A program made the translations under genes and the position numbers. Below are positions 2,826 through 63,963 of a stretch of DNA of 64,000 nucleotides, in pieces. Every line of letters begins with the position of its first letter. Positions within the stretch are counted from its first letter, which is position 1. Under the pieces are notes generated by a model that saw nothing but the letters and a program-made list of their open reading frames with translations, did no database searches and was not told where the DNA came from. Location of the stretch: the NCBI GenBank assembly GCA_031763025.1, contig JASSKH010000037.1, forward strand, positions 3,162,001 to 3,226,000. The letters run 5' to 3'. This DNA comes from Macrocystis pyrifera (Eukaryota > Sar > Phaeophyceae > Laminariales > Laminariaceae).

Positions 2826-3088
2826 TTTTCTTAGGGAAAAGCTAAAAAAATTGGCGTCATGAATCGTGATTTTTTTTGTCGTGATTCACGACAAAAAAAT
2901 CACGATTCACGACAAAAATCTCACGAATCGTGATTTTTTTTGTTCGTTAGGAGTGGCCCTTAGGGAAAAGCTAAAACAATTGGCGTCATGAATCGTGATT
3001 TTTTTTGTCGTGAATCACGACAAAAAAATCACGATTCACGACAAAAATATCACGATTCGTGATTTTTTTTGTTCGTTAGGAATGGCCC
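2211..3088. mobile_element. Palindrome-rich nonautonomous element flanked by TTA, PIF/Harbinger-like
   Basis: The left end reads GGGCCGTTCCTAAAGAAC and the right end, read inverted, GGGCCATTCCTAACGAAC. TTA lies directly outside both ends (2208-2210 and 3089-3091). A 3-bp TWA target duplication with GGG...CCC ends is characteristic of PIF/Harbinger, and a transposase of that class lies just to the left. The interior holds no recognisable gene. It contains many copies of the near-palindrome ATCACGA(A/T)TCGTGAT and a tandem duplication at its right end. It may be nested rather than one unit, because a second internal copy of the right terminus lies at about 2941-2959. Confidence 0.55.
2831..3088. 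repeat. Two 129-bp tandem units made of inverted ATCACGAATCGTGAT motifs
   Basis: Units 2831-2959 and 2960-3088 are nearly identical. Each begins TTAGGGAAAAGCTAAAA and ends GTTCGTTAGGA(G/A)TGGCCC. Inside are alternating direct and inverted forms of TCACGAATCGTGA separated by runs of T or A, so single strands could fold into long hairpins. The same palindrome occurs at 2185-2200 and 2238-2256. Confidence 0.75.
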
Positions 3089-3091
3089 TTA

Positions 3092-7902: not shown

Positions 7903-8812
7903 AATCTCGACTGTAAAAATCAAGGCAGCCAAGCTCAGAAAAATACAAAATTAACTCCTTGCATCATTTATATATTTATGCAGTCCCTTTTTGGGTTAGA
8001 CTCTCCATCTCAATCAAGCACCAATCCAATGTGACCTCGCTACAGGGGACACACTAAATTCAGTCAAATGGCAACGAGAACCTAGACTTTCGTCCCTGAA
8101 ATAACGCCCCAGTTTAGTGCGGTCGACTTTGTATACTACAGATTTCAATTCCGCATTACGTACGTAGATACATATTCAGTATAATAATGTTGTACCAGGT
8201 ATTATATATAGTAGTTCCAAATATTTCAGCTTTCCTGCTACAGCCATCTTCTTCCAGCCCCAACGGAACGGGAAAAAAAGCATCACTCATGAATCACGAT
8301 CGATTCCTCAACTCAGGAAATCCATAAACTTGAGAAACCCAGTACAGGTATAGTGTAACACTGTATGGTCCCCCTTGTGCCCGTACTTGGCCTTGCAAAC
8401 AGCAGGGGGAGCGGAGGGGGGTTAGGTACTCGATGTCATGCATGACCACTCTTCTATCATGACTATAGGCCCTCGCATCGCTACAATGCCGGGACGGAGC
8501 ACGCCGGATTGTCACCGATGACATACGCATAAAACAACTCCGTACTGCCGCCTCTTACTGCGGCCGTACATGTACGTACCAGTATCATAGACTAAAAAAA
8601 CAGAATTCCAGAAATGACGCACTCAGCTATCAACTATCATGTCATCAACCATTAATCCACACCTAAATCACTTGAATAGAAATACCCGTAATTTTAATGC
8701 ACTCGTGTTTTACCACAAATGACTTGGTTTAGTGCTAAAGATCCTAATTTCGAGAATAATTGAATAGGGATGAAGCACACGACCAAAAATGAGTCTCCTC
8801 GTCATTTAACTC
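7903..8812. other. No gene recognised
   Basis: About 900 bp of AT-moderate sequence with no convincing open frame, splice pattern or transposon end. A TACCAGGTATTATATATA stretch lies near 8190. Confidence 0.4.
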
Positions 8813-9126
8813 GAATAAACAGCACAGCAGCAATATATCGTAGCTACACTCGTCCGGGCACGACAGGAGGCTACCGCAAAGCTACCTCTGACGCTCATCG
8901 CATACCCTACCAAACGCTGATTCACTCATTAACAGGTCAACCTCAACAACGCGCAACGTGTCCTGCTCAAAATATCAACGCGAATAAACAGCACAGCAGC
9001 AATATATCGTAGCTACACTCCTCCGGGCACGACAGGAGGCTACCGCAAAGTTACCTCTGACGCTCATCGCGTACCCTACCAAACGCTGATTCACTCATAA
9101 ACAGGTCAACCTCAACAACGCGCAAG
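8813..9126. repeat. 169-bp tandem duplication
   Basis: Copy 1 (8813-8981) and copy 2 (8982-9126, shorter) both begin GAATAAACAGCACAGCAGCA. They share the GTAGCTACACTC core and the block ending TCAACAACGCGCAA. Differences are few, so the duplication is fairly recent. A poly-G run (9126-9138) follows. Confidence 0.75.
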
Positions 9127-10238: not shown

Positions 10239-10584
10239 TCACGCGGCCACAGCAGTCGCCCCAAAAGGCTGCCGCTGCTGCTGCACGCACTGGAGGAACT
10301 GCTGCCGTTGCTGCTCCTGGTCGAGCCTCCGCTGCTCGAGTTGCTGCCATTGCTTCTCGAGCTGCTTCTTGTATTGCTGTTGTTGTTGAAACTGTTGCTC
10401 GAGCCACTGCTGCTCCTCCTGTTGCTGCTGGTGTTGCTGCTGCTGCTGCTGCTGCACGCGCTGGAGGAACTGCTGCCGTTGCTGCTCCTGGTCGAGCCTC
10501 TGCTGCTCGAGTTGCTGCCGTTGCTTCTCGAGCTGCTGCTTGTATTGCTGCTGTTGTTGAAACTGTTGCTCGAGCCACTGCTGC

Positions 10585-10616
<32 letters not shown>

Positions 10617-10954: not shown

Positions 10955-11221
10955 TGTTGATTGTACTCAGATACACGACATCTAAGATCCATGGTAGATT
11001 GGGGAGTTACTCGCTGGAAAGGGATTCCGGCAGTAGGGTATTGGGATATCGGGGTAGTGTGTGCCCACCAATGCCACTCGTCAGGTGCAACCCTACACTG
11101 CATGTGAGGCGAGTCAACTCTACAGCGAGAATGTAATATAAGAGGAGTTCGTGTTTCATGTCTGGAGTCAGCCACGCGTTCCCGTGCCAGCTGAGCCTAT
11201 ACCTTTAGGGATCAATCAACA
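10955..11221 (+). repeat. 5' LTR of Copia copy 2
   Basis: 267 bp, TGTTGATTG...CAATCAACA, preceded by GAACA. Confidence 0.88.
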
Positions 11222-12299
11222 CACTAGTGAGATACCGGTGATCTTCTATTGGTAAGCGTAGCCCAGGCCAACCCAAAGAGGTGGGAACCTGCTTCGAGCA
11301 TGTCTGTTCTTTTTTCAGATGATGTGCTTCGTGAGGGAGCCGTTCCCGTGCCAGCTGAGCCTATACCTTTAGGGATCAATCAACACACTAGTGAGATACC
11401 GGTGATCTTCTATTGGTAAGCGTAGCCCAGGCCAACCCAAAGAGGTGGGAACCTGCTTCGAGCATGTCTGTTCTTTTTTCAGATGATGTGCTTCGTGAGG
11501 GAGCCAGCGTGTGTGTATTTTGAAGATGAGATCGAGGTCCTGGAGGAGAGGACGTGTGTGTGAGAAGAGTCAGGAGGTGCCGCAACAGGAGAGCAGCAGC
11601 GATCCCAGCGGGGCCAAGTTTGAGCCGGACCTGGTAGAATCGCTTGGCACTGGTGGCGAAGGCGCTGGAGAGTAGTAGTTGCAGGGACAGCAGCAGCTCC
11701 AGCAGCACCGTCAGCAACGTCAGCAGTCAGAGGATTGCTGCACTTTTGTTGCGACGATGAAGAGCATGCAGTAAGCACCGTTACCGCCGCCGTCGTGTCG
11801 ACCGCCGCGTAACCGTCGCTGCTGCAACACCCCGGGATAGCCAGGCATCTGCCTGAATCGGTGGGTTCGCTGCGCGCTGGCGACATAAATGTAGAACGTA
11901 TATTATTATATGAAAGAGGGAGACCGCACGACACCAGGAGGGTGGTGGCGGTGTGCAGGGTGATCGGGCCAGGGGGGAAGCTGGGCGACACCCGGAAGGT
12001 AGAGATGTGCTGAGGGAGCGGACAAGAGGGGAGACTGCGCGGAACCGCGAGGCTATGGGGCATGGGCTGCTGTCATTGATGGCAGCACGGGAAGGTATAG
12101 GCCATGTACTTTTCCACCAAGCCCCACCGCGCGAGAGCCCTCCCCTTCCCACACGCCCGGCGAGCGAGCTTTCGACGCCGAACTCGTATGCTGAAGCGTG
12201 TGCGGACGAGTATTCGGCCATCTGGAGACAGGCGATGGACAAGGAGTACCATGGGCTGGCGGACGCGGGGACGTTTGGAGCGATTAGCAACCAGAGGGG

Positions 12300-13747
12300 C
12301 TCAACGTCATCTCGGCGAAGTGGGTGTTCGCCTGGAAGTCCAACGAGCATGGTGACGTGGTGCGGGCGAAAGCAAGGCTGGTGTCACGAGGTTTCAAGCA
12401 GCGTGAGGGTATTGATTTCTTTGAGACTTTTGCTCCGACACCTGCAGCGTCTTGTTTCCGTTTGTTGGGTGCTATCGCGTGCGAGTTGGGTTTGGATTTG
12501 TGTCATTTTGATGCTGAGCAGGCGTTCGTGCAGTCGAGTTTGGATGAGGATGTATTTATGCGACTACCCCCCGGCTGCGGCGAAATGTCTGGTAAGGTAG
12601 TCAGGTTGAATCGCAGTCTCTACGGCTTGAAGCAAGCGTCGAGGTCGTGGCACAACCCCCTTCTCACTCACATGAAGAGTCTAGGATTTGAGCAGAGCCC
12701 GCTGACGCGTGTGTCGTGAGGTTGGTCGAGTCGGGCTCTGTTTCCATTGTAACGGCAGTTCATGTGGATGATATTTTTGCTGTAGGACTCAAGGCTAGAT
12801 GCGATCAGTTCTGTGAAGACCTGAACAACCTTGTTCCGATCAACAATCTGGGCGAGTTGCGGTGGTATGCTGGTTGTTGTTTTTCGAGGGATTGGGAAGC
12901 TGGTACTTTAACGATTTCGCAGCAGGCGTTCGATGAAAATACCGCGGCGAGGTTTGGTGTTAGTTCTGGGAGGAATAACCCGCTTTCCACTGGTGTGAAG
13001 CTCGAGGAGTTTGACGAGAATGAACCCGTGGGTGATTGGCCTTTCCACGTGTTGGTGGGGTGCTTGATGTGGCTTGCGAACCAAACACGACCGGATATTG
13101 CGAACGCGGTAAGGGCGATAGCGAGGTACACGAATAGGCCGAGGGAAGTACACTGGAGGACAGCAGTCGGTATTTTAGAGTATGCATTTTCTACGAGTGA
13201 TTTCGGCATTACGTTCCAGACGGGTAGCGGGCTTGAGCTGGTAGCGTTTGCAGATGCAGACTATGCCAACAAAGCCACTGACAGGAGGTCAGTTTCCGGT
13301 GGGGTTATCATGTGTGCTGGGGCGTGTGTGTGCTGGTTTTCTAGGACGCAGAAATGCGTCACACTCTCAACCACTGAGGCCGAATATGTAGCACTGGCAG
13401 ACACTATCAAGGAGGCAATGTTCATGCGTTATGTATTGAGTTTTATTTTTCCGGGGTTTGGGGAGAGGTGCATTACGGTTTTCGAGGATAACGAGGGGGC
13501 AAGGCACCTGGCACAAAATCCAGTGTGCACGTCGAATTCGAAGCACATCGACGTACGACACCACTTTTTGCGCGAGCTTATTTTTAAGGGGGAGTTTGTT
13601 ATTACCCATGTAAGAGTCGGAGAAATAGCATGCAGACTTCTTGACAAAGCCGCTCAACAACACGGTGTTTCGTTACCACCGGGATTTTCTGATGAATACT
13701 TGACGCGGTTTTTCCGAGGTGGAAGGTTTTATGTTATTTTTGAGTGA
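12300..13747 (+). pseudogene. Copia pol remnant: reverse transcriptase and RNase H
   Basis: Reverse transcriptase signatures include ARLVSRGFKQREGIDFFETF, RSLYGLKQASRSWH and the active-site block VHVDDI. The RNase H region has ADADYANKATDRRSVSG, LSTTEAEYVALADTIKEA and KHIDVRHHF. The conserved wording and the RT-RNase H order at the 3' end of the coding part are typical of Ty1/copia pol. It is a fossil: the frame is broken and upstream pol domains are not recognisable. Confidence 0.88.
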
Positions 13748-28134: not shown

Positions 28135-30069
28135 CACTAGTGAGAGTCCGGCGATCTTCTATTGGCAAGCGTAGCCAAGGCCAACCTAGAGAGGTGGGAA
28201 CCTGCTTCGGCATGCCTAGTTTCGAGGACATGCCCAGTCAAGAAGCCAGCGTGGAGAGTGAAAAGACCATAGAGGAGATGAGGAAGAAAATAGAGGTCCT
28301 GGAAAGGACGATGGAGGAGCAGAGACTGCGCGCCGAGAGGGACGCGCAGGGAGCAGGAAAGGAAGGGGGGGGCGGTGGGGGGACGAGAGGAGAAGGAACT
28401 GCAAGAAGACAGCAGTCGGTATTTTAGAGTATGCATTTTCTACGAGTGATTTCGGCATTACGTTCCAGACGGGTAGCGGGCTTGAGCTGGTAGCGTTTGC
28501 AGATGCAGACTATGCCAACAAAGCCACTGACTACAGGAGGTCAGTTTCCGGTGGGGCCATCATGTGTGCTGGGGCGTGTGTGTGCTGGTTTTCTAGGACG
28601 CAGAAATGCGTCACACTCTCAACCACTGAGGCTGAATATGTAGCACTGGCAGACACTATCAAGGAGGCAATGTTCATGCGCTATGTATGGAGTTTTATTT
28701 TTCCGGGGTTTGGGGAGAGATGCATTACGGTTTTCGAGGATAACGAGGAGGTAAGGCACCTGGCACAAAATCCAGTGTGCACGTCGAATTCGAAGCACAT
28801 CGACGTACGACACCACTTTTTGCGCGAGCTTATTTTTAAGGGGGAATTTGTTATTACCCATGTAGAGTCGGAGAAACAGCATGCAGACCTCTTGACAAAG
28901 CCGCTCGACAACACGGTGTTTCGTTACCACCGGGATTTTCTGATGAATATTTGACGCGGTTTTTCCGAGGTGGAAGGTTTTATGTTATTTTTGAGTGAAG
29001 GATTTGTCTGAACTACGTATAAATCCGAAGATGCTGCTGTTTTTTTCCCTGGCTAATTCCGAGGATGATACCATTTCGTTCCTGGTGATCGATTTCGAGA
29101 GTTTTTGGTGTTTTCGAGTAGTCCCCACGTCAAATAAAATTCAAGTGAAGGAATGTATGCTATCTCGCATTACCGTCGCGATCTGTGTATCTATGGCGGG
29201 AGTAGGGGACAAGGGGAGACCCTTGTCCGGGGGAACGGGGTTCCTTGCGATCTCTGGCAATATTTTTCTTGGCTTAATTTTTATTTTGATGAGTAGGACT
29301 ACTGTGATATTTTATATGATTTTCATTAATTCCTCATGAAATAGAGGGAGATTTTTTTGGATAAGGTTGAAGAGAGACTATGAAGCGCCTGGGGGCGTGT
29401 GCGGTCCATAGGAAATGTTTTCTGATTTGGAAGGTTTGGGCAGTATTTCGGAAATTGAGAGTTTGATTTTTTTTTGTTCTTGAAAATTTGTGCTTTTGTT
29501 CAAAGTCAGTACTGACTGAGTGGTCTAGCAGGTAGTGCTATATAATTCCCTAGGGTAGGTCGGGAGTTGAAGTCTCGCCGAATTCGTAAGTTGATCTTTC
29601 CGAGCGTGCGCGCTAGAGACAATACGAATGATTATGATAGTGTGCCCGTAGACACCAGTAGCGTTTGGCGAGGAGAAGGCCCCGGAGATCACTGTACTAA
29701 GTCGACGAGATTCCACTGAATATCTTTTGACCAATTCCGCGGAAAATGCCGTTTTACCTGACTGAATCCGAGAAGAATGCCATTTTACCTGGCATTGGAT
29801 TTCGAGAGTTTTATTTGTTTGCAACAGAGAGGCTGGGGATTTGAGTATTTGAATACTGATTTGAAGATTTGAGTGTTGATTCAAGAATTTGATTTTTGAG
29901 TTACAGATTGGATTTTTGACTTTCTGAGTTTGATTCGAGTTGATATTTTTATTGAGATGTATCAGCTCTGCGTTGTCGTACATTTTCATGTACAGAGCTG
30001 AGGGGAATATCGCTCATGCACAGGAGCAGGGGGGATATGAGTATGGTCGTGTATATTGAATAGGGGGGA

Positions 30070-39098: not shown

Positions 39099-39160
39099 AA
39101 GTTAGGTACGTACTATTAACACGTAGCCGAACAATATGAACCATAACGCCTGTAGTTTAC

Positions 39161-39491
39161 AACAAACTGCAGATTAGTATAGTATCGGCTCCCGATCCCT
39201 AGTAATATTCTCCGTTTCCTCGTGATTACTTAGTTTCAATACAGGATTTACTTTCGGCGTTGAAGATGACTTGATGTTGGCCCTACGCAGTCATTTATTC
39301 GAACGTTTGCGCGAGACGTTTTACATACAACAAACTGCAGATTAGTATAGTATCGGCTCCCGATCCCTAGTAATATTTTTCCTCGTGATTACTTAGTTTC
39401 AATACAGGATTTACTTTCGGCGTTGAAGATGACTTGATGTTGGCCCTACGCAGTCATTTATTCGAACGTTTGCGCGAGACGTTTTACATAC
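39161..39491. repeat. Recent 168-bp tandem duplication
   Basis: AACAAACTGCAGATTAGTAT starts copies at 39161 and 39329. The copies appear identical except for a small indel in the run after AGTAATATT. Both end in GCGAGACGTTTTACATAC. Confidence 0.9.
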
Positions 39492-39789
39492 ATACCTTGG
39501 AGCACCAGGAACCGGTTCAGAAAAAAACAAAATTTAAATGGAAAACAAGGGTTTCTTTCTTCGGAAGCGCGTGAATATTGTTAATATTTTTCAAGGTCTT
39601 GTGATTGGTCTTGACATTGTTTCACCGCTAGCGCCAGCTTTCGGCCCTTAACAACGAAACGAGCTTTATCACCCTATTCCGCTGATCATTGCGGTCAGTA
39701 TGGCAACAAAAGTATGACGTTCAAGTAGCTATTACATGCGGCATTCATGGTTGGGGTCTCGTGGCTTGAACCAGCCTGTATAACTGTCT
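39492..39789. other. No gene recognised
   Basis: Unique-looking sequence between the 168-bp duplication and the next 260-bp repeat unit. Confidence 0.4.
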
Positions 39790-48907: not shown

Positions 48908-49272
48908 CAGTAGTACGCGAATCCGACGAGGCCTTGCCATTTGTTTCGACCCTATGCGGTCGGCATTCTATTGACTCTGATGCCACAAAAAATCGCATCC
49001 ACTGTGCCGGTACCATCCAACGCAGGCAATTAACCGACGCCTGCAAAAGACCCGTCTTCTCCGGATTCGAGGCTACAGCCTACTTCGTTACTGCCGACGA
49101 AGGCGATCAAGGGAAGCGTTCGCTCACCCCGGATGGCAGATCCTTGCTTAGCATCAGCACGTGCGCGCCCCACGGATACTACGAGCTCGAAGTCAGTGTC
49201 GAAAGCGACAACATCGACGCAAGCGACAACTCGAGGGATATCCAATGGGAAATCGACACAGGGTCCCCCGAG
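48908..49272 (+). CDS. WSC gene, N-terminal exon a
   Basis: Entered in phase 1 after an AAGCAG acceptor and left in phase 0 at GAG|GTGAAA. It encodes a non-WSC region with STCAPHGYYELEVSVESDNI and DIQWEIDTGSPE. No domain is recognised. The exon start could also be 48911. Confidence 0.55.
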
Positions 49273-52200
49273 GTGAAATTGTAGACTTTTCAATGCAAAT
49301 ACTTGAGAGGGTAAAACTAACGGTAGATGTTTAACTCGGGTACTTCTTAGTGCTTTCATTATTCCTTGAGCTTTCGTGGTATGATGGATTTCGGACCACA
49401 TGAAAACCCGTTGAATTCTCCGTCCTTTCGATCCTTCTGTGTTCTCATCTGCAACAGTCCTTCATGTCGAAGAAGTGGACTGGGCGGGCACAAGGAAATG
49501 TAATCAACAAGGACAACTCGAGAGACACTGCAATTGGCCAGGCTGCCAGCATATGGCTGCTAACACATGACGCCAGCTCCCAAATGGGAGCTATTTGGGC
49601 TGGACCCGAGCCTCAGTCATGCGAAGAGACAAGCGGGGGTGGCCTACTCCACACAGGGAATGAATCGCGCAGAAGACTCGCTGCCGTACAAAATTTTGTT
49701 TCCAGCGGCTACACTTCAGGCAATTGCGTGCCTGAGGACGCAACCGACCTTGAAGTAGTGTTCACTGGAAGTATTGACAACGGGGTGAGTGAGTCTCTTC
49801 GTCGCGTGGTAGGTGATGTGGTGTGCGATATGATAGTATTTACATCAAGCTTGCATTCTGCTTCCAGCTTTCTTGTCGCGGAAACAAAGAGGTGTGCGGA
49901 TAGTTCGTAAACTGTAGTTTTATATTTGTGTCAAGTGGCGTCGCGGGTCTTCTGTATAACGGGTGCCAGAAGAACATAGAAACTCGACAATTGATGGCAG
50001 GTTTACTTGGGTCTTCCCGCGTTCACGCTGCCACCTACCTCTTAGTCCATCTCTTATTTGCACCAGCCTTTGCGCAGATTTGCCTCTGCCGTTCCCATCG
50101 TGGTTCAAACGCAACGCGGACCTGCGTGGTTCAAACATAATGCGATCCTCTTTTGCCGCCTGCATCGGCTCCTAATCATCGGCCGTAAGCTACCAGGCAG
50201 TATGTTTCGCTTGTCACAACTGGTGCATACGAGATGTAACATCAAGTACACGTCAAACATTCGACCACCAGCTGTGCCACGGCAACGTCTTGAATGCGGC
50301 CGCTTTCCTTGACACCACAGGACTGCCTTGTGGAGTGTTCATCACTTGGCTTTCCAACCTTCGGCACCTCGAACGGTTCAGGTGCGCATCCCGTCCTCGG
50401 CATACACGTGCAACGTTGTTTCCTGGTTTCACCTCCCACCCGTGTGAACAAACAGGAAGCTCGTATCGAAATTTGTAGCGGAATCGATCCCAAGGAAGGA
50501 ACCAAAAGTGCCGCAACGCCACACATCCCCCTGATCGTCGTGTGGACAGCGGTCGCTCATTCGCCACGCCTACCGTTTCCGTTGTTCGTCATGCCTGCCG
50601 TTCTGTTGTTGCAGAATGTCTATGTGGAACAACCGATACAAGTGGTATCACGCCCGTGAACACGTGCACCACACCGTGCACTGCCTTCGATGGGTTTTTT
50701 TGCGGAGGCTCTGATTCCATATCCGCGTATCATTCTACAACCGCTATTGATGCCACGGTTGAAAGAAGTACGGCAAGTGTCACTGGCTCGAATTTCCTGG
50801 GGTGCTTCTCTGTCGGCAACAACGCCGCAAGCTTCGGCACGCCCGTGTTTGCTGGCAACGTTACGATGACCAATCTGGTGAGATGGGTTGCTCCGTCGCA
50901 TGCAAACAGTTTTAGCAAATTAGTGTACCTGATGTAGTTTTCTCGGAAGTTCCGTTTACTTTTACTTCGCAAACCTATGTCGTACACACAACAGAAGTTG
51001 CGGCTTTAGTATGTGTTGTCACGGGCGCTGTTTCTTTTCGCGCCTATGTACCGTAGCACGTATATATTCTTGTTCGTTCGTCAGATCATTTAGATAATTT
51101 GACCTTGCCATCCGTTTCGCACCACCGTCTTCAATACGGTCACCTTCTTTTCTTCGGCAGGCGTGCAAAGACGAGTGCGAGAGACTTAACAAACCTCACT
51201 TCGCCACAACAGAGGGCGAAGGTGAGCACACTTAACATTCGACTACCGCGTGCAACGCTCTGCTGGTTTGCATTTTCTACATTTTGTAGGTACGTAGCTT
51301 GCGACGCAAAGATTTGCCTAAATAAAAAACGAACACGCAACAACAGCGGCTAAACCACCCGCGACCCTAACCGACATACCCTCGTTGTTTTTTGGCAGAG
51401 TGTCTATGTGGGAACAGCCCTCCAACTGGCGACAAACAACTCTCCAAGTGCGCCGAGACGTGTTCATTGCCTAGCGACGACGACACGTGCGGGGGGTCCG
51501 GATATATGAGCGCTTACATTATCACTGACAATCTCGCCCCTGCATTGCTTCCAACGGTGATCAACCCCCTGACGGACGCGATCTATAGAGGGTGCTACCT
51601 CCTCCCGCAAGACATTCCATTCGTAAGCGTGTTGACGGACTCCGATGGTATGAGCATCCAGGTAAAACGTTTAAAGAGTGTTTCGTTGTGTGATATGTAA
51701 CGTATTGTATAGCAGGCCTATTTGAGCATTCGTTATTTTTCGAGCTTGTATTTCGCGGGCAAAAATGATTCATGAACAGACTGATTGTGTTCCGCCCAAC
51801 GACCAGTATATTGCAAAGAACCAGCGGGGCTGTGCAGCCGATGTGCAGAGGGCCCCGGTAGAGTACAACACGTAAAACACAAGGCAGGACAACACCTGGG
51901 CCTTCTGACGTATCTCAACATGTAGCCATGGAACCCAGCCTCAACTGTATAATATACCTGAATACTGCAACCACTGCTGTGCTATGCTTGAATCTACGAA
52001 TCGCGTCACGGTGCCGCCCTGAACATTTTTCTTGTCACGACAGATGTGCCAAGAGGAGTGCAATACGCTTGGCATTGCCTTCTTCGGGGTCACAGAAGCC
52101 AGAGGTGCGCAAACCTGGCCTAGGCCATTTGCTGTCTTCTGTATCTTGTACATTTTGCGTAAGGTACAGTACTTTGCCTGCTAGGGAAACGTTCTCCTAA

Positions 52201-55200
52201 TCGCGTGTTCCACTTCCGATATGCTTGTCTGCTCTCTTGAGACAGATTGCCAATGTGGAGCCGATGTTCCAGGACCGGTTTTTCAAGAGTCAGAGTGCGA
52301 CGTGGCGTGTGCAGCCAACACGGGCGATGCACATGCGTGCGGGAACAATGGTGGCACATATTTGACCCTCTACGAAATAGACGGAGAACCCACGGGAATG
52401 AGCCCCGTTGTAGCAAACGTTCTCGCCTCTGACCTTACGGATGACGACGGCAACACTATCGGCGTGAATTACGAGGGGTGCTACATCATCGACGACATCC
52501 TTGGCATCACCGAGACGCCCGTCTTAACCGCCTCGGACATGAACAACGAGGTGGATAGATTGCTTCGTTCGCGGTGTGCAGCGTTCTGGTCATTAACGGT
52601 AGTAGTTATGGAGAGTCAAGCAGGCTTGCGCCTACGCCGAGCTTGTATATCAGCAATGGTGCATGCGTGTACGTACTTGCAGACTAAGCGTAGTTTTTTG
52701 TTGGAAATTTCGCTGTGTAGCTGCCGTGTGACAGGCACCGTTAGACTACATAAACATGCACATCGCGCGGGACTCCTCAAAAACCCTTTCGAAGCCCTCT
52801 CCCCGCCCGTTACCTCTCTTCGCACTCATGAAGCTATCCGCGGTTAGGTGCTTGTTTATTGGCTCGACCTACCTGGAAAAAAAGGAGCAAAGAACTGATT
52901 TCATGGATTGCTCTACAATGCCCAAAACTGTCGTAAAAAAGAAGACAAGAAGGGACAAAGTTTCGGATCGCCTTGAAACCAAACAAAGGACGGCATTCCC
53001 GGCTTTTCTCCTCATTACCTCCTCACCAATCGACTAGGCTTTTCCGCATTAGAAGGCAGTAGAACGGTACCCAGCAGCGATCAGAGCTAACCTGAGTTGG
53101 GCTTAGGCTTGAGAATTTTCTACAGAATATCTTTGTTGGGTAAAACAATACTTTTGTTGGCTTGAAAACGCTGTTACCCATCAACCCTAACAATTTGACG
53201 CGATCCGATTCTTGCGAAGCATCCCCGGGGGCCGCTTTCCCCCTTAATCGGCTATTTTTCCCCCTAACCCTGCCCCCTGTAATCACTTCATACATCGACG
53301 TGGTTAACCGAGATACATGCAACGTTTCGCACCTTTGAATACATTTATTGACCGTCTGCGGGAAACAACGGCGTCCTAACCCTAATAAGATCGCAGTCTC
53401 GTTCTGGGGACAAACTGCTTAAAATTTTAGTGGTTTATTCTTAGAACGGCACTGCCGTCCTAAAAGGGCTAATACATCGCGGTGCCTACGTATATTTGTT
53501 TTCAAACACTATGTCTTCGATTTACGTGTGTTGCCTGTTTCTCCCATTAATTGCCCCCCCATTGTGGGCACTAGCCTTGGGCTGTCGCAGGTGGCTGAAA
53601 AACGTCAACAGCCACAGTATGAACCCTCGGTACTCCGTCTTCAGTCTCGAAAACCCTTTGAGTCGCAACTGCAGCACTTCGTCCGTTGAACTTGCCAGCC
53701 GTGTCGTGACTTGAATACGGCCCCCTTTCCCTGCCGCGACAGAAATGCAGAGACGAGTGCTTCACGTTGGGCTACCGGGTTTTCGGTACGACAGGCGGAA
53801 CAGGTGTGCAGATCTGACGTGCATCGGCATCTTCTGTTTTGTACCTTCCACCCGCGGCGTGCGATACTGTAAATAGCTTGTATCGGAAATGCTCACATGT
53901 TTCCTAATCGCCCAACCCGTCTCGGCATGTCCACCTGTTGTTTGTTTGGTCGCAGACTGTCTATGTGCCCCCATGGTTGATTTTTCAGCGCTCGACACCA
54001 AACAATCGAACTGCAACGGCGTTTGTGGCGACGGTAACGACGAGGCGTGCGGGAGCCAAGCAAGACAGGCACGAGCGCTTCAAACTGGGTCAAGCTTATC
54101 CTTAAGCTGCTATTCGTTCGTGAGCACCCCGGTGGCCTTGATTAAGGTCGTACTGGAAAGCGTCCAATTTGCCGAACCCGAGGGATGCTTCCCATCCTCG
54201 AGCTTTGGGCTTGAGAGTACGCATGTGCTGTCGCTTACCGACGTCGAGGACATGACCAACGCGGTGAGATGTACGCCCTCGTCGCGTGTAGTTATACACT
54301 GTTGAACAGTACCACCAGGTCTTGCACCCAAGCATCAATTCCAATTATTGTCATCGCGAACAACAATCGTGTTTGGCCATAGTCGTAGCCTACGGGTTGT
54401 TCGCGTGCCGCCCAACGGTCGATATTCTGTACATTTCATATGGAGTTGTGTGGTTTTTGCGTAGCGAGCGGGAGTATTATAGAACACAAAAATAACGTTA
54501 CCCCTGGCGTTTATGCTGCCGCATATACCTCTCTCCCTTTCCCTTTCTAAGGTTATCTACGAAGAATTGTGATATTTGTTCGATTAAACTGAGTTCAAGT
54601 AGGCTCTCGGCACGTGCACTTGCTGTGGTGCAGAGAACAGAATATTGGTTGGTTCGGACCTGAAACTGGCTTGTCAGCGCCTGACGAAGGGTTCACCCAG
54701 AGATTGCTGAACGTTCAGGAGCTATTTTCTTCGGACAACACGCGTTGCGTCTGTCGTCTATCCTCAATGATGTATTCTCAAACACTATGCGGCTATCGAC
54801 TAACTTTCTCCTGATTTGTCCTCGCCCCCTCTCGTTTCCAAACCTAGATAACTGTTAAAGACGGATGGAAGTATGGAATTTTGACTAGGTATACTCCTGC
54901 AATGTGTGGAAAGGAAGATTGGGGGGTTTTCGGGTACCGCCCGTTGACACGTGTTCGGCGTTGAAACTTAGGCATGTGTGTCTCACGGCGGGACTCTCTC
55001 CATTCCGTGGATTCCCTCTTCGCTTACGTTGCCGCATTCCCCCTCATATGCCCATTTCTTCCTGCTGTCGATGAATGCACTCGGCCGATCGTGCATGGTG
55101 CGGTTTGTATCTGGTACACTCAGAACTTGCGTCTCTCACTGTGTAATTGAGTTGATTCTGTACTTCATGATGATGCACCATTGTGTAGACCTTGATATAT

Positions 55201-58200
55201 TTCGTCTGGAGTTCCTTGTTTTCTTTATTGCTCTCCCATTGTCAGCTCTATGACTACTTGTGAGGGGTGGCAGCAAAAGATGGGGAGCACAAACGAACAC
55301 ACATACACGCAGTAAGCGGCACCAATCCAACCCCGGCGTACTTCAAACAGATTTTGCTGGCAGTTATTTGAGCCAGTCAGCGTTGTAGCGCCACTGTCTT
55401 GAACGAAACCCATTTTCCTGCCACCGCAGGTCTGCATGGAGGAGTGCTCTAAGGGCGGTTATACGGTAGGCGCGACGACAAACGGCGAAGGTGAGGAACA
55501 TCGAGTTTGACTCGTTCTTGCGTGCATAGGTACTTGTTGCTGTCTTGTCACACAGACGGCGGCGTGCGACACCATGCAGGTGTAATTGTAGCGGAAATGC
55601 GCGCAAAATGGAAGAGATCATCACACGTTTTCCTGATAACCAAACCCCTTCCGGCATGCTTCCCTGCTGCTTCTGCGGCAGAATGTCACTGTGGAAGCCA
55701 GCTTCCAGATTCAGATCCCGTCGCACAATCACTGTGCAATGCCGGATGCACAGGCGAAGAGGACTTTGCGTGCGGGAGCACAGACAGCGCTTACCTGACC
55801 GTCTACACGTTCACCGCCCTGACGGCAACTGTGCTCCACACGGAAACTGTTGCGGGCTGGAACCCCGAGGGGTGCTTCAGTGTCGACGATGTCGACACAG
55901 ATGAATTCCCTATAGAGCCAACTTTATTCGTTGACTCCAGGATGAATAACACGGTGAGATAGGTCAAGAAACCGCGTGGTACGTTCTGCATGGCCTGTAC
56001 CGCAGTTGTACCCGAGTTTCTGGGAACTCCCCGAGTACTATCCCATCCCCCTCCTTTTGCATCCTTTTTCAAACACCATTTGGTCATTGGTTTTGTTTTC
56101 GTGTTATTACGGGGGTCCATAGTTAATAGGACCTATGGTATACATAAAAACCTATATATTTACCTATTTTTACTAACAATATTTGGTCCCGTTAACTATA
56201 GACCCCGGTAATAATATGTTTATTTTTCCTTATTACTGCTCCTCAGCCGTCAGGCATGGGCTAAACCTGACTACTAATAGACCGGAGGCACACCATTTAG
56301 ACCGAGTCACGAAAATAACGATATATGAACCCGCTGAACTCCAGCCACAACCTTGAATACGACATGTCGTTGAACCTGCCGGCCGTGTCCCGACGCCGTC
56401 TTGAATACGGTTGCTTCCTTTACGACGACAGATGTGCGGAGGAGAGTGTTTACTGCTTGGTCACCAGTACTTCGCTACGATAAGGGGCGAAGGTGCGCGA
56501 ACCCGACTCTGACCATGTGCAACGATACCCGCGATTTACCTCTTCCGCTCGGGGTGTAAAACACAGTAGGTAAAGCTTGTGGCAGGATACTTTCGAAAAC
56601 TACTAGAGCGGCACAGCAGCAGCAAAAAGTTTCCCTGATCGCCAGCACCCTTTTCGATTGCCGTACGTGCTGCCTCGTTCTAGGTTGTCTGTGTGGAGGC
56701 GACCCCGACGTCGACGCTGACGAGATGCGACGTTCGGCGTGCAACGCCCCTTGCAATGGTACGGTCGGAAATGCTTGCGGGAGTGTGGAAGGCGCCGACG
56801 CCGAGCACGTAAACCTCTATTCGCGGCCACAGCCCCCGGGCCCATCTATGCTACCCGGGATGGAACTCGTGAAGGGATCGATGATCCAGGGGTGCTTCGA
56901 CGTCGATGATGTTGACTTCACCCCAGTGCTGTTCACCGCATCCAACATGACCAATAATGTGAGATAGACCACGCCGGGTACAGTCGTTCAAACCAACCTC
57001 TCGATCTTGTATTCGCGAATACTACAAATGGTGTACGAACCTACACAGCAGAGTAGGAAATGTTCGGGTACCGTTAAACAATCGGTATTTTGTGAGGTGC
57101 AGCTGAAACTATGGCGTAACACGACAAGGCTTCTACAACAGTAGCAAGTTTACGTCCGGCGCACCTCTCTGTCCCTCTGTATTTGCACGGGATGCTTCTA
57201 TTCCTGAACGTTACTAACCATGGCCCGTGTCCTCCGGATCTCCGCTCAAATACTACGAATATATGGTCAGCGACATATCGGAACCCGGGAATTGAACCCA
57301 GCATCAAAATCATGGTGTTGGTCACCACAGGACTGTCTCGCTTGCCTTCTTCCTTGCTCCCTATTATCTGTCATTAGCCAACATGACCGTGTGCGATGAT
57401 TAGCGCATGTAGTTGGTGTGGAATGCAAACAATCACTTATTCAGCGGCGGGAATTCAGCTCCAGCGTAGATACTTAAGCCATTCAGCCACGTCGCGCCAA
57501 TATTTTGAACACGACCACCGCTACTTTCCATGCCACGACAGGATTGCGTAGGAGAGTGCCTCAAACTTGGCAAACCAGCTGCCGCCACTTCACACGGCAA
57601 AGGTGCGTGAATACGAGTATGGTCTTCAACGCTCTGTGCTGTCTAGTTGTCCAATACCGCACGCAACGGGACATACAGCCGTTATACATACTAAAAATAC
57701 TAGCTTGTAAAGGAATTTTCGGACGTTTATTAAGGAACGCACGACAGCTGCACACACACGTTTCCTTGATCGCCAGAATCTCTTTCGGCGTTGTTTTTGT
57801 TTTGGGGCAGATTGCCGTTGTGGAGACGTCGCTCCACAAGCCAAAACGAACAAAAAGCTCTCAAACTGCAACGCCAAGTGCGCTGGGGGCCTGTCCTCAA
57901 CCGGAGAGGCGTGTGGGAGCAAGAGCGACTCCACGACGACCAAGACGTACGTAACCGTCTATTCGATGGACGTTGTTCCTGACAAGATACGATACGGCCC
58001 GGGATCCGTTGGGGGAGCGGAGCACAAGGGATGCTTCAACGTTATGGACGTCACTGCATTCCCCTCGATGCCCGTGTTCACTGACGCGGATATGGACAAC
58101 GAGGTGAAATAGCTGTTTTATCGTGATGTGGTGCAATGCACTGCACAGCACTACACAGTGTGACTATTGTATATGACCAATTTGCCGTTCTTGTTCTGGC

Positions 58201-61200
58201 TTGCATTTTACAAACAACAAAGGTGCGTGGACAGAATTGCAGATTGTTTTTTGTGTGCCGCCCAACTACCACTCTGGCCAAGAATTGACGGGCGACGCTG
58301 GAGTACAAATGTTCAATGCGTCTTCCCTTGTTCTCCGTTGTATTTTCTATTCTTTGTTTCGCATTGTTTCTGGTGTCTTCGTCAAAATACAATGACCATC
58401 AAAAGTGTCTATATTGTCTGTATGCCCCTCTGTTACCCTCTATTGTGCGCCCGGCTACGTCTGGCTGCCTGCCGTTAGCTCTTCAGACTATTTGTGGTTG
58501 GGGGCACGGGGGTCAATCGCAAAACAGAGCAACACGCCCACATGCAGTCGCGGCCATGCAGTTCCGGCCTTGATGAAGCCTTCAGGCATACAAGCACTGC
58601 CAGGCATAGAATTCTGCCTACGAGCTGCGTCACGGCAATGTCTTCAATTCGTTCGTTTTCCTTGCCGTGACAGTTATGCAAAAAGGAGTGCGAATTGCTT
58701 GGCAAGCCGTTCTCCGCCACGACAAAGAGCACAGGTGCGCAAACCCAACCTCGGCATATGTACACCAGTATGGCTTTCTGCTGCCTGTGCCTTTTCCACA
58801 GAAGGCATGAGGCGGATTTGTACATCTGGTAGCTTGCAGAAAAATCCTGTTTGAAATAGGTTTGATAATATGCTCTCTGGTGTGGGAAGGAACGAATGTA
58901 TTCAACGTTGTAAAGCATGTGCTGAGTGGTGTATTTAAATGATTGAAATCGCTCCCCCCCATCTCGAAGAGAATATGTCATGAATGGTTAAATGAACTAA
59001 GGCAAGCAACCAATAATTACCCCCCCCCTCCATGCTGTCATCCATATGCAAGAAAATCCTCCTCACAAGTGGTTCTTAGTAGGGTGCAGCTCACCCTTCA
59101 TGCGACTCGCCCAACACCTTACGGCGCTTCGCGCTTGGTGCAAGCAATGTCTGACTGTCGGTGAAAACCCGACATGCTCCGTCCCGGCATTGTAGGGATG
59201 CGAAGGTCTATGGTCATACGACTACGGCCATGCATGATAATGTCAACACCCCGTACCTGATGTATAGGTTGGGATGGCGCCGGTTGGCGACGACGCTGTA
59301 ATTCACGCCTCTCACTGCGTGAACTAGACAGCCAGGGTACCGTTTTTGTTGTTGTTTGATTTGGGCGCTCCCCACCGTTGGCGGTCGAGATCAGCTTTTT
59401 GCGGGGAGAACCTTTACTCCGTACAAGCGGGATGATCGTATCACGTATAGTACGTAAGGTACCCACCCATAGCTGTCTCTGGAAGTGGCTACACCAGAAA
59501 ATAAATCAAATAATTGACGTTGTCATCCACATGCAAAAACTCCGCCTCAAAGATGGTTCTTAAAAGGATGCAGCTATGAGACTCGCCCAACACCTCACGG
59601 CGCTTCGCGCTTGAGACAATGAATATCTGCCTGGCCGGTGAAACCCCGGCGTCGTCGGTCCCGGCATTGCAGGGATGCAAGCTTCTATGATTATACGACT
59701 GCGATGATACATGATAATGAGTGCACCCCCCCTCCCCACAGGAAGCGTCCACAATATGGAATAAACACCCGTCTGATTGCTGCCTCCCTTTTGGCGTGCC
59801 GACGTCTTGTTTTGTGCTAGATTGCTCGTGTCTGACCGCGGACGAGGCCACGGCTTTAGGCCTCTACATCAAACAATCGGGGTGCGCCGACACCTGCGGA
59901 GGAAACCACACCGAAGTGTGTGGGAGCGCCGACGGCAACTACGTCAGCCTCTTTAGCAATCTAAATACGAGCATATCAGGCGTGACCAACATTCCCCCGA
60001 CGGACGCCAGCACCGCCGGAACACACCTAGGATGCTTCAGCATCAGCCACATCGAGCCTGTGTTCACCGCTGACTCAATGACCACTGAGGTGAAACAGCG
60101 TGCTTCATCGCGTGGCGTGCACAGTACTGAGTTCTAATCGAATTTTTACCGTCCTGTTGGAGCTTGCGTTTTCAAACAACAATGGCGTATGGACGTAGTG
60201 GGGGTTGTTCCAAACCACCCAATTTTAAAGTGAAGCAGTTTACTAATGTACTAATGTACAACGACGCTGGCTATTCCTAAACGTGTCCATCTCACCGCAG
60301 GACTACCAGAGTCTCCCTACATCAATGTGACCGCGTTCCTCTAAATGTTGCCATGGATTGCTTTCGTCTGTCTTGCTTGCCCTCTCCCTTGCTCCGTGTT
60401 ATCTGTAACGAGTTGGCCATATCGATATTAGATACAACAACATATAGCACCCTCTCCCTTGACGAAGCACCCTACCATCATAGAATGAGACATTCTGTTA
60501 CTGCAATCTAACGACCGCCGTCTTGGAATATCGCCGCTATCCCTTCGACGACAACAGAAGTGCAGGATGGAATGTTTCGAGCTTGGCAAGAAGTTCTACG
60601 CCACGACAGAAAGCACAGGTAGGTACACGCGATTTTGGCTCACACGAACCACGTTTCTTGCTGTGTTGCCCAGGATGTACCAGGTATCAGACGTTGCTTG
60701 TGACTAAATAAATCGCAAGGTACGTACTAAAAAAGCCCACGTTCCCCCAAACACTACCCTCCCCCGCCACCCGCCATGTCTACCTGTTGAATTGGGCAGC
60801 TTGTATATGTACGGACAGTATTCCGGAAACAGACCTCCAACTGTCAAAGTGCGACGCCAAGTGCAAAGGCCAAGAAGTATCATGTGGGAGCAAAGACGGG
60901 AAGTACATGAACTTCTTTCACATGGCCAACTCTCCTACACTGAAAGACCCCAAGACGGAAGACGTCGAGAACTCGCAGCACAAAGGATGCTTCAAAGTGG
61001 ACGGCGAGGGTGGATTCTCCAAGACGCCTGTGTACACCGACGTAGCAATGACCAACAAGGTATAGACTGCTTCATGGGGTGGTGAATATCTATGCAGTAG
61101 CTTTGGTCGAGATGTTTCCTGATTCGACCTTGAGCTTCGCAAACAACAATAAGTGTTATTTGGGTATGTTTGCCGGGAGGGCAGCCCCCCCCGACGAATT

Positions 61201-63963
61201 CACGTCTGCCTCCCTCTCTTTCCACACTTCCGTATCATCTTGCATATTTTCCCCCACTTCTAGTATAGGTCAGGCTTGCTCTCTTCCTCTCAACCCCGTT
61301 GTCAGCCACGAGTTGACCTGACTGTTATGACGGCGAGTACGAACATGACGAGTAAAACATTATCCATTGCATTTGAAGTAGCGACAGACTGACCCAGGCC
61401 TAGGTGTATCATGAACACCGCACATATATTATATATATGTATATGTTGCTTGAGCCCACAAACTGCTTGTCGCTACCGCTTTGAATACGCCCGTTTTCCT
61501 TGCTACAACAGAAATGCGGAGACGAGTGCATAAAGCTTGGCAAGTCGGTCTTCGCCACGACAGGCGAAGGTGGGCAAAGTCGACTTCGGCTCACACGATA
61601 CGTACGCACAGCCGACGTTACCTGATGTTTTACCATTTCAACACGCAGTGTAAGATGCATTGGTATAATTTTTTCGCATGACAGCAGGAACAAACAAGAG
61701 CAGCACACGGTCCCTTAATCACTAACCCCCTACACGGCATATTTACCTGTCGTTTGGGAGCAGATTGTTTATGTGGGAACAAAGTTCCAAGAACCGATAT
61801 CAAACTGTCGAAGTGCAAACACACAATGCGGAGGCAACGGAGGGACGTCGAAAGTGACGTGCGGGAGCAGCGAAGGCGGCGACCACTACATGGACCTCTA
61901 TCACCAGAATGTGGATCCTCCCGCAACGGTCGTGCCCAATCCGGAAATATTTGGCGATGCGTTGTACCTGGGGTGTTTGAATATCGAGGCCAACAAAGAT
62001 ATCCTCAGTGAAGAATGGACATACGACGACATGACCAACGAGGTGCAGAAACAAGGCATGAAACGCCTGCAAGAAACTTGGCACCTGCGCAGTACTGAGC
62101 AGTACCTGCAAATCGTCCTTTTGCTCTAATGTCGAGTTTGTAAGTAGTGTACGGCAGTCAAACATGGGGTTTTCCGACGTGATACGCTCACGGTACTAAA
62201 GCTGGTACATCACGGACTAGGGCTACCATGGCTCCAGCCCTTCACGCTGCACGGTATACCCCCTCCCCAAATAGTTTCCACCAGAATTTACCTCTGTCTC
62301 TTCCATTCTCGATAAATCCACATGTCATCGACTGCGCCACGTCTGTCGCGCTTCTTCACCTCCGCCTTGTAAGTCTTAGTCGTACGACTGCCTGACCCTA
62401 AGGCCGTTCATGTACCTGGCCCAGGTCTTGATTTCGCAGTTATCTTTGACGTGCTGGACTAAGTGCCCGCAGTGTCGCCCCATCGTCTCGCACCTGGCCG
62501 CGTTCTTTGCCGCGACAGAAATGCAGAATTAAGTGCGAAGCGCGTGGTGAATGGTACTTCGCTACAGCCAAAGGCACAGGTGCGAAATCCCGACTTGGGC
62601 ACACGCATGCAATGTGTGATGTTGTAAGTTGCTTGAAGTGGAAATACCCGCAAGTTACAAGGTCCATGCACCACTATATATCTAAACGCCAGATCCCATG
62701 TTGGCATGTTCTTCTTCTTTTGGCAGTTTGTCTATGTGGAGACAAAGCTCCGCAGGGGAATCCCCGTGTCTCCGCGTGCGACACCAAATGCGGCGATGAA
62801 GACGACGACTACGCGTGTGGAGGTACCGATCACATGACCGTCTATAAGCTGACGGCGCCTGTCGTCGATACGACTGTGCCCGTGCCGGCTGTCGTTGCCG
62901 ACGCGACGTACAAGGGATGCTTCAAAGTCAACGGCAACGGCGCCATCCCCACCGACCCAGCATGGACCTACCGAACCATGACCAACGAGGTGCAGAAACA
63001 AGACCTCTACATCGGGTGCAATGCGCGATGTACTCCGAATCGAGCAGGCAGCTTTGTACGGCGTACGCACACAGTTACAGGTTGAATGGTGTCCCGTGTA
63101 GATGTAAAACGGACGCCCGTAGATAGAGTATATTCATGCATTTGACGGCCAGGCTGCCTTGGGTCCCAGCAGTTAAAGTTGCTGCAACGTACCTCTCCGT
63201 CCGTATACACTTTTACTTTTTCGTATCGCGCTTTGCCTCTTCGTTGACATTGGTGTATGCACATCTGAATCGTTGCATGAGTAGGCCACAAGTGGGCCTA
63301 ACTTCCTGTGCACAAGTTGTCGGTTCACCTGAACGGCACGTGCTGCGCCTCGGACTATCTTCATCCAGCCTTGATTCGGTTTTTCATCGAGATGTCCTGA
63401 AGCCTCTCTGGCATTGCGCGTGCTCGCCGTATCGCCCCACCGCCTCGCACCTGACTGCTTTATTACCACGACAGAAATGTAGAATAAGATGCGAAGACAG
63501 GGGTGAATGGGTCTTCGCCACGACCAAGGGCTCAGGTGCGTACGGTCGACGCTGGTTCACCCAGGAAACGTTATCCGATAGGCGACGTAAAATACCGTTG
63601 TTTGCTTGTCATGAATGTCACCCGTAAGGTGTCAATGAAAGGACGGTACAGTATCCCTAATCGTGGACACCCCTTTCGGCATATATGTTTTCTTCTGCGG
63701 CAGAATGTCTATGCGGAGACGAGGTTCCAGCAAAGTACAGCGAACCCTGGGGGTGTTCCACCCGGTGCAAGGGGGACAGCAAAGAGCAGTGCGGAGGCAA
63801 CTTGCACATGTCCGTCTTCAAGCTGAAAGATGATGTCATCGCGGGAACTTTGCCCGACATGTCTGAGGTGTCTGGCGCGACACACAAGGGGTGTTTCAGG
63901 GTCAGCGGCAATGGTGTTATCCCCACCACCCCAATACGGACCGTCCGCAAGATGACCAATGAG
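48908..63963 (+). CDS. Giant multi-WSC-domain protein gene, 3' end beyond window
   Basis: Twenty-six exons with GT-AG borders give one continuous frame of about 4.7 kb (about 1,570 residues), apart from one frame disruption in module 10. Two N-terminal exons (48908-49272, 49458-49784) precede 12 WSC modules. Each module is a microexon (C-x3-C...FATT) plus a longer exon that completes one WSC domain (CLCG...C...C...CGG...Y) and begins the next (GCF...D...MTNEV). WSC domains are Cys-rich carbohydrate-binding modules known from yeast wall stress sensors and brown algal wall proteins. The product is probably extracellular and polysaccharide-binding. Microexons are entered in phase 0 and left in phase 1, and each module ends in phase 0. 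The gene continues past 63963. Similar intron segments flank many modules, evidence of tandem duplication. Confidence 0.85.
49458..49784 (+). CDS. WSC gene, N-terminal exon b and start of WSC 1
   Basis: Phase 0 to phase 0, 327 nt, after CTGCAACAG. Its end, GNCVPEDATDLEVVFTGSID, aligns with the GCF...MTNEV strand that opens the other WSC domains. The preceding part has CEETSGGGLLHTGNES and no known domain. The donor is GTGAGT. Confidence 0.6.
50321..50877 (+). CDS. WSC module 1 (exons 50321-50381 and 50615-50877)
   Basis: The microexon reads DCLVECSSLGFPTFGTSNGS. The long exon opens ECLCGTTDTSG, with NTCTTPC and FFCGGSDSISAY, then starts the next domain with GCFSVG...VTMTNL. Acceptors are GACACCACAG and GTTGTTGCAG; donors GTGCGC and GTGAGA. 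Confidence 0.85.
51161..51661 (+). CDS. WSC module 2 (51161-51221, 51399-51661)
   Basis: The microexon reads ACKDECERLNKPHFATTEGE. The long exon has ECLCGNSPPTGDKQLSKC, CGGSGYMSAY and GCYLLPQD. Donors are GTGAGC and GTAAAA. Confidence 0.85.
52044..52550 (+). CDS. WSC module 3 (52044-52104, 52246-52550)
   Basis: The microexon reads MCQEECNTLGIAFFGVTEAR. The long exon (305 nt) has DCQCGADVPG, HACGNNGGTYLTLYE, GCYIIDD and DMNNE. Donors are GTGCGC and GTGGAT. Confidence 0.85.
53743..54263 (+). CDS. WSC module 4 (53743-53803, 53956-54263)
   Basis: The microexon reads KCRDECFTLGYRVFGTTGGT. The long exon (308 nt) has DCLCAPMVDFSALDTKQSNC, EACGSQ and GCFPSSSFG, ending DMTNA. The second Gly of CLCG is Ala, and the Y/SVY strand is less regular. 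Confidence 0.82.
55430..55953 (+). CDS. WSC module 5 (55430-55490, 55682-55953)
   Basis: The microexon reads VCMEECSKGGYTVGATTNGE. The long exon has ECHCGSQLPDSDPVAQSLC, FACGSTDSAYLTVYTF and GCFSVDDVDTDE. Donors are GTGAGG and GTGAGA. The intron before this module is about 1.17 kb and holds no recognised gene. Confidence 0.85.
56432..56958 (+). CDS. WSC module 6 (56432-56492, 56684-56958)
   Basis: The microexon reads MCGGECLLLGHQYFATIRGE. The long exon uses a TTCTAG acceptor and has GCLCGGDPDVDADEM, NACGSVEG and GCFDVDDVDFTPVLFTASNM. Confidence 0.85.
57542..58103 (+). CDS. WSC module 7 (57542-57602, 57811-58103)
   Basis: The microexon reads DCVGECLKLGKPAAATSHGK. The long exon has DCRCGDVAPQAKTNKKLSNC, EACGSKSDS, TYVTVYSM and GCFNVMDVTAFPSMPVFT. 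Confidence 0.85.
58674..60089 (+). CDS. WSC module 8 (58674-58734, 59821-60089)
   Basis: The microexon reads LCKKECELLGKPFSATTKST. The long exon has DCSCLTADEATALGLYIKQS, CGGNHTEVCGSADGNYVSLF and GCFSISHIEPVFTADSMTTE. The internal intron (about 1.09 kb) is enlarged by a duplicated segment. The CLCG motif is changed to CSCL. Confidence 0.83.
59035..59735. repeat. Duplicated about 215-bp segment in the WSC module 8 intron
   Basis: 59035-59257 and 59521-59735 share ACTCGCCCAACACC(T/C)(T/C)ACGG, CGCTTCGCGCTTG, GGTGAAA(A/C)CCC and GTCCCGGCATTG(T/C)AGGGATG in the same order. They are diverged. It could be two copies of a short interspersed element, though no A/B box was identified. Confidence 0.7.
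60558..61059 (+). CDS. WSC module 9 (60558-60618, 60800-61059)
   Basis: The microexon reads KCRMECFELGKKFYATTEST. The long exon has ACICTDSIPETDLQLSKC, CGSKDGKYMNFFH and GCFKVDGEGGFSKTPVYTD. Donors are GTAGGT and GTATAG. Confidence 0.85.
61512..62042 (+). CDS. WSC module 10 (61512-61569, 61764-62042), one-base frame disruption
   Basis: The microexon is one codon shorter (58 nt), KCGDECIKLGKSVFATTGE. The long exon begins DCLCGNKVPRTDIKLSKC. The expected continuation (TQCGGNGGTSKVTCGSSEG and later GCLNIEANKD) lies in another frame. At 279 nt it is one base longer than a phase-keeping exon, and the extra base falls at about 61814-61822. Either the gene is broken in this allele or the base is an assembly or read error. 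Confidence 0.8.
62519..62989 (+). CDS. WSC module 11 (62519-62579, 62727-62989)
   Basis: The microexon reads KCRIKCEARGEWYFATAKGT. The long exon has VCLCGDKAPQGNPRVSAC, YACGGTDHMTVYKL and GCFKVNGNGAIPTDPAWTYR. Very similar to module 12. Confidence 0.88.
63475..63963 (+). CDS. WSC module 12 (63475-63535, 63704-63963) and start of the next
   Basis: The microexon reads KCRIRCEDRGEWVFATTKGS. The long exon has ECLCGDEVPAKYSEPWGC, QCGGNLHMSVFKL and GCFRVSGNGVIPTTPIRTVR, ending KMTNE|GTGAAC. The next WSC domain therefore begins here and continues outside the window. Confidence 0.88.

Follow-up and report, generated by a model that had tools for sequence, protein, structure and literature searches.

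WSC domains and exon-modular genes of brown algae

Complex multicellularity evolved in brown algae apart from plants and animals, and to our knowledge few brown algal wall proteins are understood. WSC proteins are listed among them in a published figure legend (PMC8307928), and the PR-1 proteins of brown algae are described as carrying WSC domains, together with a CAP domain, in multi-exon genes (PMC12879055). In the reported structure of yeast Wsc1 (7pz2), the disulfides C49-C69 and C53-C71 bind the helix of the WSC domain to its beta-4 strand, next to the pairs C27-C86 and C90-C98 (PMC9024836). WSC3, a fungal lectin with three tandem WSC domains from Serendipita indica, is reported to bind long-chain beta-1,3-glucan, with short oligomers lacking measurable affinity (PMC7816849). 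A parallel of a different kind lies in gene structure: the leucine-rich repeats (LRRs) of brown algal ROCO genes and, as cited in the same source, the NB-ARC-TPR genes are built from intron-delimited repeat units multiplied tandemly within one gene (PMC11378527). The gene described here, on the + strand of a 64,000-nt stretch of the Macrocystis pyrifera genome (C127:3162001-3226000; hereafter the window), carries this exon-modular style beyond LRR and TPR genes to a domain of extracellular type, WSC. It appears to have grown to 19 WSC domains by duplication of a two-exon unit, and its predicted product would probably be secreted and bind polymers of the wall or matrix multivalently.

By analogy, the kelp WSC array resembles the exon-modular LRR genes of brown algae, but the units are built differently. 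Whereas each ROCO repeat is reported to occupy a single 72-bp exon in phase 2 (PMC11378527), the kelp unit comprises two exons (0-1 and 1-0); one exon does not correspond to one repeat, and the introns fall in phases 0 and 1 instead of a uniform phase. Yeast Wsc1 and human Kremen1 share with the kelp domains the Pfam and profile match, the eight cysteines, and the C-x-C and CG motifs, whereas the kelp gene has 19 tandem copies, encodes its domains by split, repeated exons, and has no C-terminal membrane anchor. Tandem WSC domains in one protein are also the hallmark of WSC3, which has three instead of 19; glucan binding would extend from it to the kelp protein by analogy only. In contrast to the PR-1 proteins (PMC12879055), no CAP domain was found in the part of the kelp gene that lies in the window. 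No exon-modular WSC array was found in the literature on WSC domains (brown algae, Ectocarpus, stramenopiles, the wall proteome) or on exon shuffling in brown algae, represented here mainly by titles and the openings of abstracts and by few subscription papers.

An array of split WSC domains

Between positions 50321 and 63963 of the window, 12 short exons are interleaved with 12 long exons on the + strand (Table 1). The lengths given in a preliminary description of this DNA were the same when re-measured: 11 of the 12 short exons (50321-63535) have 61 nt and one has 58 nt, alternating with long exons (50615-63963) of 260-308 nt. The label "microexon" used in that description suits them less well, since 61 nt is short yet above the usual size limit of microexons. 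All 24 exons are bordered by AG upstream and GT downstream. The junction between short and long exon lies in phase 1 in each of the 12 modules, in agreement with the preliminary description, but its statement that every module runs from phase 0 to phase 0 applies to only 11 of them, in which the summed length is divisible by three; in module 10 (58 + 279 nt) it is not. The short-exon pattern exceeds chance: in a leave-one-out profile test, all 12 held-out short exons scored 15.3-37.9 bits, and among 2221 reading frames from other parts of the window or from the opposite strand none scored above 8.0 bits.

Two exons precede the array. The acceptor of exon N1 is uncertain (48887, 48908, and others all fit), and its product has a weak match to DUF4807 that remains under the Pfam cut-off; the start of exon N2 at 49458 is one among several possible acceptors.

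Table 1. Exons of the WSC gene in the window, with the one oversized short-to-long intron found there.
Feature	Position	Strand	Remarks
Exon N1, N-terminal	48908..49272	+	coding score 25.4; exits phase 0; no Pfam family above cut-off
Exon N2	49458..49784	+	coding score 12.3; phase 0 to 0; N-terminal half of WSC domain 1
Short exon 1	50321..50381	+	61 nt
Long exon 1	50615..50877	+	263 nt
Short exon 2	51161..51221	+	61 nt
Long exon 2	51399..51661	+	263 nt
Short exon 3	52044..52104	+	61 nt
Long exon 3	52246..52550	+	305 nt
Short exon 4	53743..53803	+	61 nt
Long exon 4	53956..54263	+	308 nt
Short exon 5	55430..55490	+	61 nt
Long exon 5	55682..55953	+	272 nt
Short exon 6	56432..56492	+	61 nt
Long exon 6	56684..56958	+	275 nt
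Short exon 7	57542..57602	+	61 nt
Long exon 7	57811..58103	+	293 nt
Short exon 8	58674..58734	+	61 nt
B intron of module 8, oversized	58735..59820	+	contains two interspersed-repeat copies
Long exon 8	59821..60089	+	269 nt
Short exon 9	60558..60618	+	61 nt
Long exon 9	60800..61059	+	260 nt
Short exon 10	61512..61569	+	58 nt
Long exon 10	61764..62042	+	279 nt; out of frame, one-base slip near 61814-61820
Short exon 11	62519..62579	+	61 nt
Long exon 11	62727..62989	+	263 nt
Short exon 12	63475..63535	+	61 nt
Long exon 12	63704..63963	+	260 nt; modules 13-19 lie past the window in L009

The preliminary description had the gene extend over 48908..63963. Exons are indeed present there, but the gene continues beyond the window into the 10 kb that directly follow it (L009). 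This region holds six further 61-nt short exons (at 397, 1417, 2992, 4077, 4979, and 5761) and a last short exon of 65 nt (7246-7310), which exits in phase 2; a stop codon is located at L009:7760-7762, at most 10 residues after the last WSC domain. The whole array comprises 19 modules, of whose short exons 17 have 61 nt; the other two have 58 and 65 nt. Seventeen of the 19 modules are open, with borders usable for splicing, including one GC donor, which apparently replaces GT at long exon 16 (L009 4736-4742). Long exon 14 (L009 1685-2244) has 560 nt and encodes a tandem P-T-W-P-x-D linker repeat between two WSC domains. Measured from its first identified exon through the stop codon, the gene spans about 23 kb. 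The coding exons found sum to about 7.2 kb, which corresponds to a predicted product of about 2,400 residues, most of them in the tandem WSC domains.

The WSC identity of the spliced product, anticipated in the preliminary description, is confirmed by Pfam. In the four stretches searched, all of them within the window, WSC (PF01822, E 4e-90) is the sole family over its cut-off, with 296.6 bits (10 stretches) and 78.7 bits (2 stretches) compared with a curated cut-off of 27.8 bits; the part of the gene beyond the window was read by eye. A PDB search with a profile of nine domains returned six sequences at E 0.01, including 7pz2 and four Kremen1 sequences; yeast Wsc1 is the best solved match, and human Kremen1 also matched. 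Eight cysteines (C5, C32, C36, C52, C54, C69, C73, and C81) are invariant in the nine domains aligned (domains 2-9 and 12, with 1, 10, and 11 excluded).

Mapped via the alignment with Wsc1, the short exon would hold the cysteine pair of the helix and the long exon its partners. The short exon would encode the WSC helix and the next strand; the long exon would complete this domain, continue through a variable linker, and begin the following domain. Loss of a single exon would break both the frame and the pairing of cysteines, whereas loss of a whole pair would fuse the beginning of a domain to the remaining portion of its neighbor, with eight cysteines kept. If the disulfide pattern of Wsc1 applies, gain or loss of an exon pair should preserve complete eight-cysteine domains.

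Probable growth of the array by copying of two-exon units

The introns of the array fall into two classes. Class A introns, which lead from a long to a short exon, have 283-1192 nt (n = 12); class B introns, from a short to a long exon, have 141-233 nt, except for one of the 12 with 1086 nt (difference in length, p 0.0004). In modules 1-12, each class shows its own conserved ends. When the labels were shuffled 5000 times, the observed class difference was never matched for the 3' ends and was matched once for the 5' ends, among which the intron end after exon N2 was counted with those of the long exons. The ends of class A introns align with a mean score of 7.6 within modules 1-12 but of -5.0 against introns of other kelp WSC genes, a control of 14 hand-picked helix-side introns, one of which (L021 7066050) may be a read-through exon. 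Nearness in the array tracks likeness of the modules (Mantel r -0.39, 11/5000), with modules 11 and 12 forming the closest of the 55 pairs compared without module 10 (55%).

Because the intron ends are class-specific and absent from the 14 other WSC introns, and because neighboring modules are more alike, the array is best read as the product of units that each comprised two exons and two introns and were copied whole and in tandem. Each growth step would have been a tandem duplication of the unit short exon, short intron, long exon, and longer intron. The earlier proposal that modules can be added or lost in frame gains support from the intron ends and the leave-one-out profiles, which indicate that in-frame two-exon modules multiplied as whole units. 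In principle, whole exon pairs can come or go without breaking the protein, and only pairs are interchangeable. Array length could then differ among strains, as the preliminary description suggests.

Putative function of the gene product

The kelp protein is probably secreted and would act in wall or matrix binding, as suggested by a gene end without a membrane segment, by the listing of WSC proteins among brown algal wall proteins (PMC8307928), and by the glucan binding of WSC3 (PMC7816849). Kelps contain beta-1,3-glucans, and the ligand may be a polymer of this type, with avidity arising from many weak domains. Avidity through repetition would fit the properties reported for WSC3, because this lectin binds long-chain glucan but not measurably short oligomers (PMC7816849). 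The same lectin lends some substance to the preliminary description, which had taken carbohydrate binding by WSC domains as established; this was an overstatement, since the report on the Wsc1 structure describes no apparent glycan site or pocket on the domain (PMC9024836).

Several observations weigh against a secreted multivalent binder that grew by unit duplication. Because Wsc1 lacks an apparent glycan site, the fold alone cannot reveal glycan binding. The start codon and signal peptide are not fixed; a hydrophobicity search for a signal-peptide exon gave several weak candidates, none of which was selected. Exon structure and splicing are deduced from the genomic sequence, and modules 10 and 18 of the 19 do not keep the frame in the assembly. 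Moreover, the intron signature is weaker in modules 13-18, where A ends score 1.2 mutually and 1.6 against modules 1-12, and B ends -0.2 and 0.8, respectively; against other WSC genes, the A ends of these modules score -4.8, which is lower than the scores inside the array.

The out-of-frame modules could signify that the array is a decaying pseudogene or has been distorted by assembly, which we regard as improbable. In module 10 (61512-61569 and 61764-62042), the long-exon profile matches in two frames, with E 6e-4 for the first part and 2.8e-11 for the remainder, and the slip is followed by a stop codon later within the same long exon; long exon 18 (in L009) leaves the frame next to a run of seven Gs. 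However, the part of module 10 past its slip still fits the profile, and the remaining 17 modules are open with usable borders. Single-base indel errors are expected in assemblies obtained from PacBio reads with Canu and Racon, and the one-base slip in module 10 is perhaps such an assembly error. The assembly of M. pyrifera, from a haploid female, is described as having been produced in this manner (PMC10498591). A membrane-bound sensor of cell-wall stress of the fungal Wsc1 type is less probable still and in our opinion very unlikely. It would agree with the shared domain family and with Wsc1 as the best solved match, but the coding sequence ends almost directly behind the last WSC domain, and no membrane segment was found in the 19 exon pieces scanned, in which the highest 19-residue Kyte-Doolittle mean was 1.53 (the usual limit for membrane segments is about 1.6). 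The scanned pieces do not include long exons 10 and 18 or any short exon, and a signal anchor could still be carried by the missing 5' exon. The sensing role considered in the preliminary description is therefore disfavored by a gene that stops with its last WSC domain and shows no typical membrane-like stretch in these pieces.

The sequence variation among modules bears on another alternative, a recognition gene whose exon pairs are duplicated, lost, or alternatively spliced, so that diversified modules bind varied foreign or self surface polymers, in likeness to the exon-modular LRR genes of brown algae, for which a role as immune receptors has been proposed. Overall omega is 0.60 (98 ungapped codons, 11 modules), and the likelihood was best at 0.5 among fixed values of 0.2, 0.5, and 1. 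M2a is preferred over M1a (2dlnL 19.7), with 22% of the codons at omega 0.10, 52% at 1, and 26% at 3.1. The preference persists when codons within one of a gap are masked (2dlnL 20.3, 82 codons) and is reduced to 2dlnL 7.93 (p 0.019, 54 codons) when the mask covers codons within three of a gap, a value as high as which occurred in none of 28 null simulations. Given the high divergence, an uncertain tree, and a model that ignores gene conversion, the result is only a hint of fast evolution at variable sites. A recognition gene would also have a precedent in the brown algal ROCO genes, whose LRR modules, of one exon each, are described as alternatively spliced (PMC11378527). Nonetheless, it seems unlikely: the masked test is weak, the overall omega is below one, gene conversion and alignment error can imitate the signal, and no signalling domain exceeded the Pfam cut-off in the four window stretches scanned. 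Even more doubtful is the stronger version, in which in-frame duplication, loss, or splicing of exon pairs would combine with positively selected surface sites into a diversity machine for a strain-specific extracellular recognition protein.

Other WSC genes of the kelp

A Pfam search of the kelp genome detected at least 46 WSC places at E ≤0.001, five of them inside this array; the count is a lower bound, with 150 of 183 candidates scored. A phase-0 intron is a common feature of the sampled kelp WSC genes just ahead of the helix (14 cases). Differences are seen at the codon before C-x-C, where the array has an intron in phase 1 in modules 1-18 and in phase 2 in module 19. Among 36 WSC places outside the array, for which phases were partly assigned by hand, the intron is in phase 0 in five, in phase 2 in three (all on C196), and in phase 1 in none; one case is unclear, and 27 have no intron at this codon. 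The hand assignment concerned places where the codon ahead ends in AG (C137, C202:3980754, and C205:700550) and a place on C206, which has an acceptor; C202:3466137 and C207:5737874 read on into the strand. Within the array, AGAG is ambiguous in module 2. An upstream short exon is present at one of the three places on C196 (65 nt, phase 2) and at one of the five phase-0 places (57 nt, on C210), whereas a pattern search found none at the remaining six of these eight intron-bearing places. The short exon recurs in other kelp WSC genes, and its 61-nt, phase-1 form marks this array within the sample. Across C196, C210, C206, C191, C204, and C127, the codon before the WSC C-x-C is interrupted in phase 0, 1, or 2. 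A single genome in which the same WSC codon either lacks an intron or has one in any of the three phases offers a tractable case of intron gain or sliding.

No recent paralogous array was seen when the protein of modules 5-8 was searched against its own genome; the search returned 12 places, 11 on C127 and one weak match on C135 (E 0.007). Relatives were not found in virus and prokaryote contig collections, nor in phages by tblastn.

An interspersed repeat of about 200 nt is located at 59036-59242 and 59521-59719 of the window and at L009 6050-6492, where it lies within the array's two oversized class B introns, those of modules 8 and 18. The same repeat is present in many WSC loci (L010, L012, L013, L015, L016, L019, L020, L021, L023, L024, and others).

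Remainder of the window

Neither Rfam nor tRNA scans gave any hit in the window, and Pfam searches of 20 other reading frames in the window yielded nothing over the cut-off. The left 48 kb may be rich in transposable elements. Two near-identical frames (13193-13426 and 28274-28678) presumably represent the RNase H of a copia-type retroelement. At 2830-3091, 8808-9125, 10268-10616, 11177-11505, and 39158-39492, the window has tandem repeats of two copies each, whose units measure 129-171 nt and match at 94-100%.

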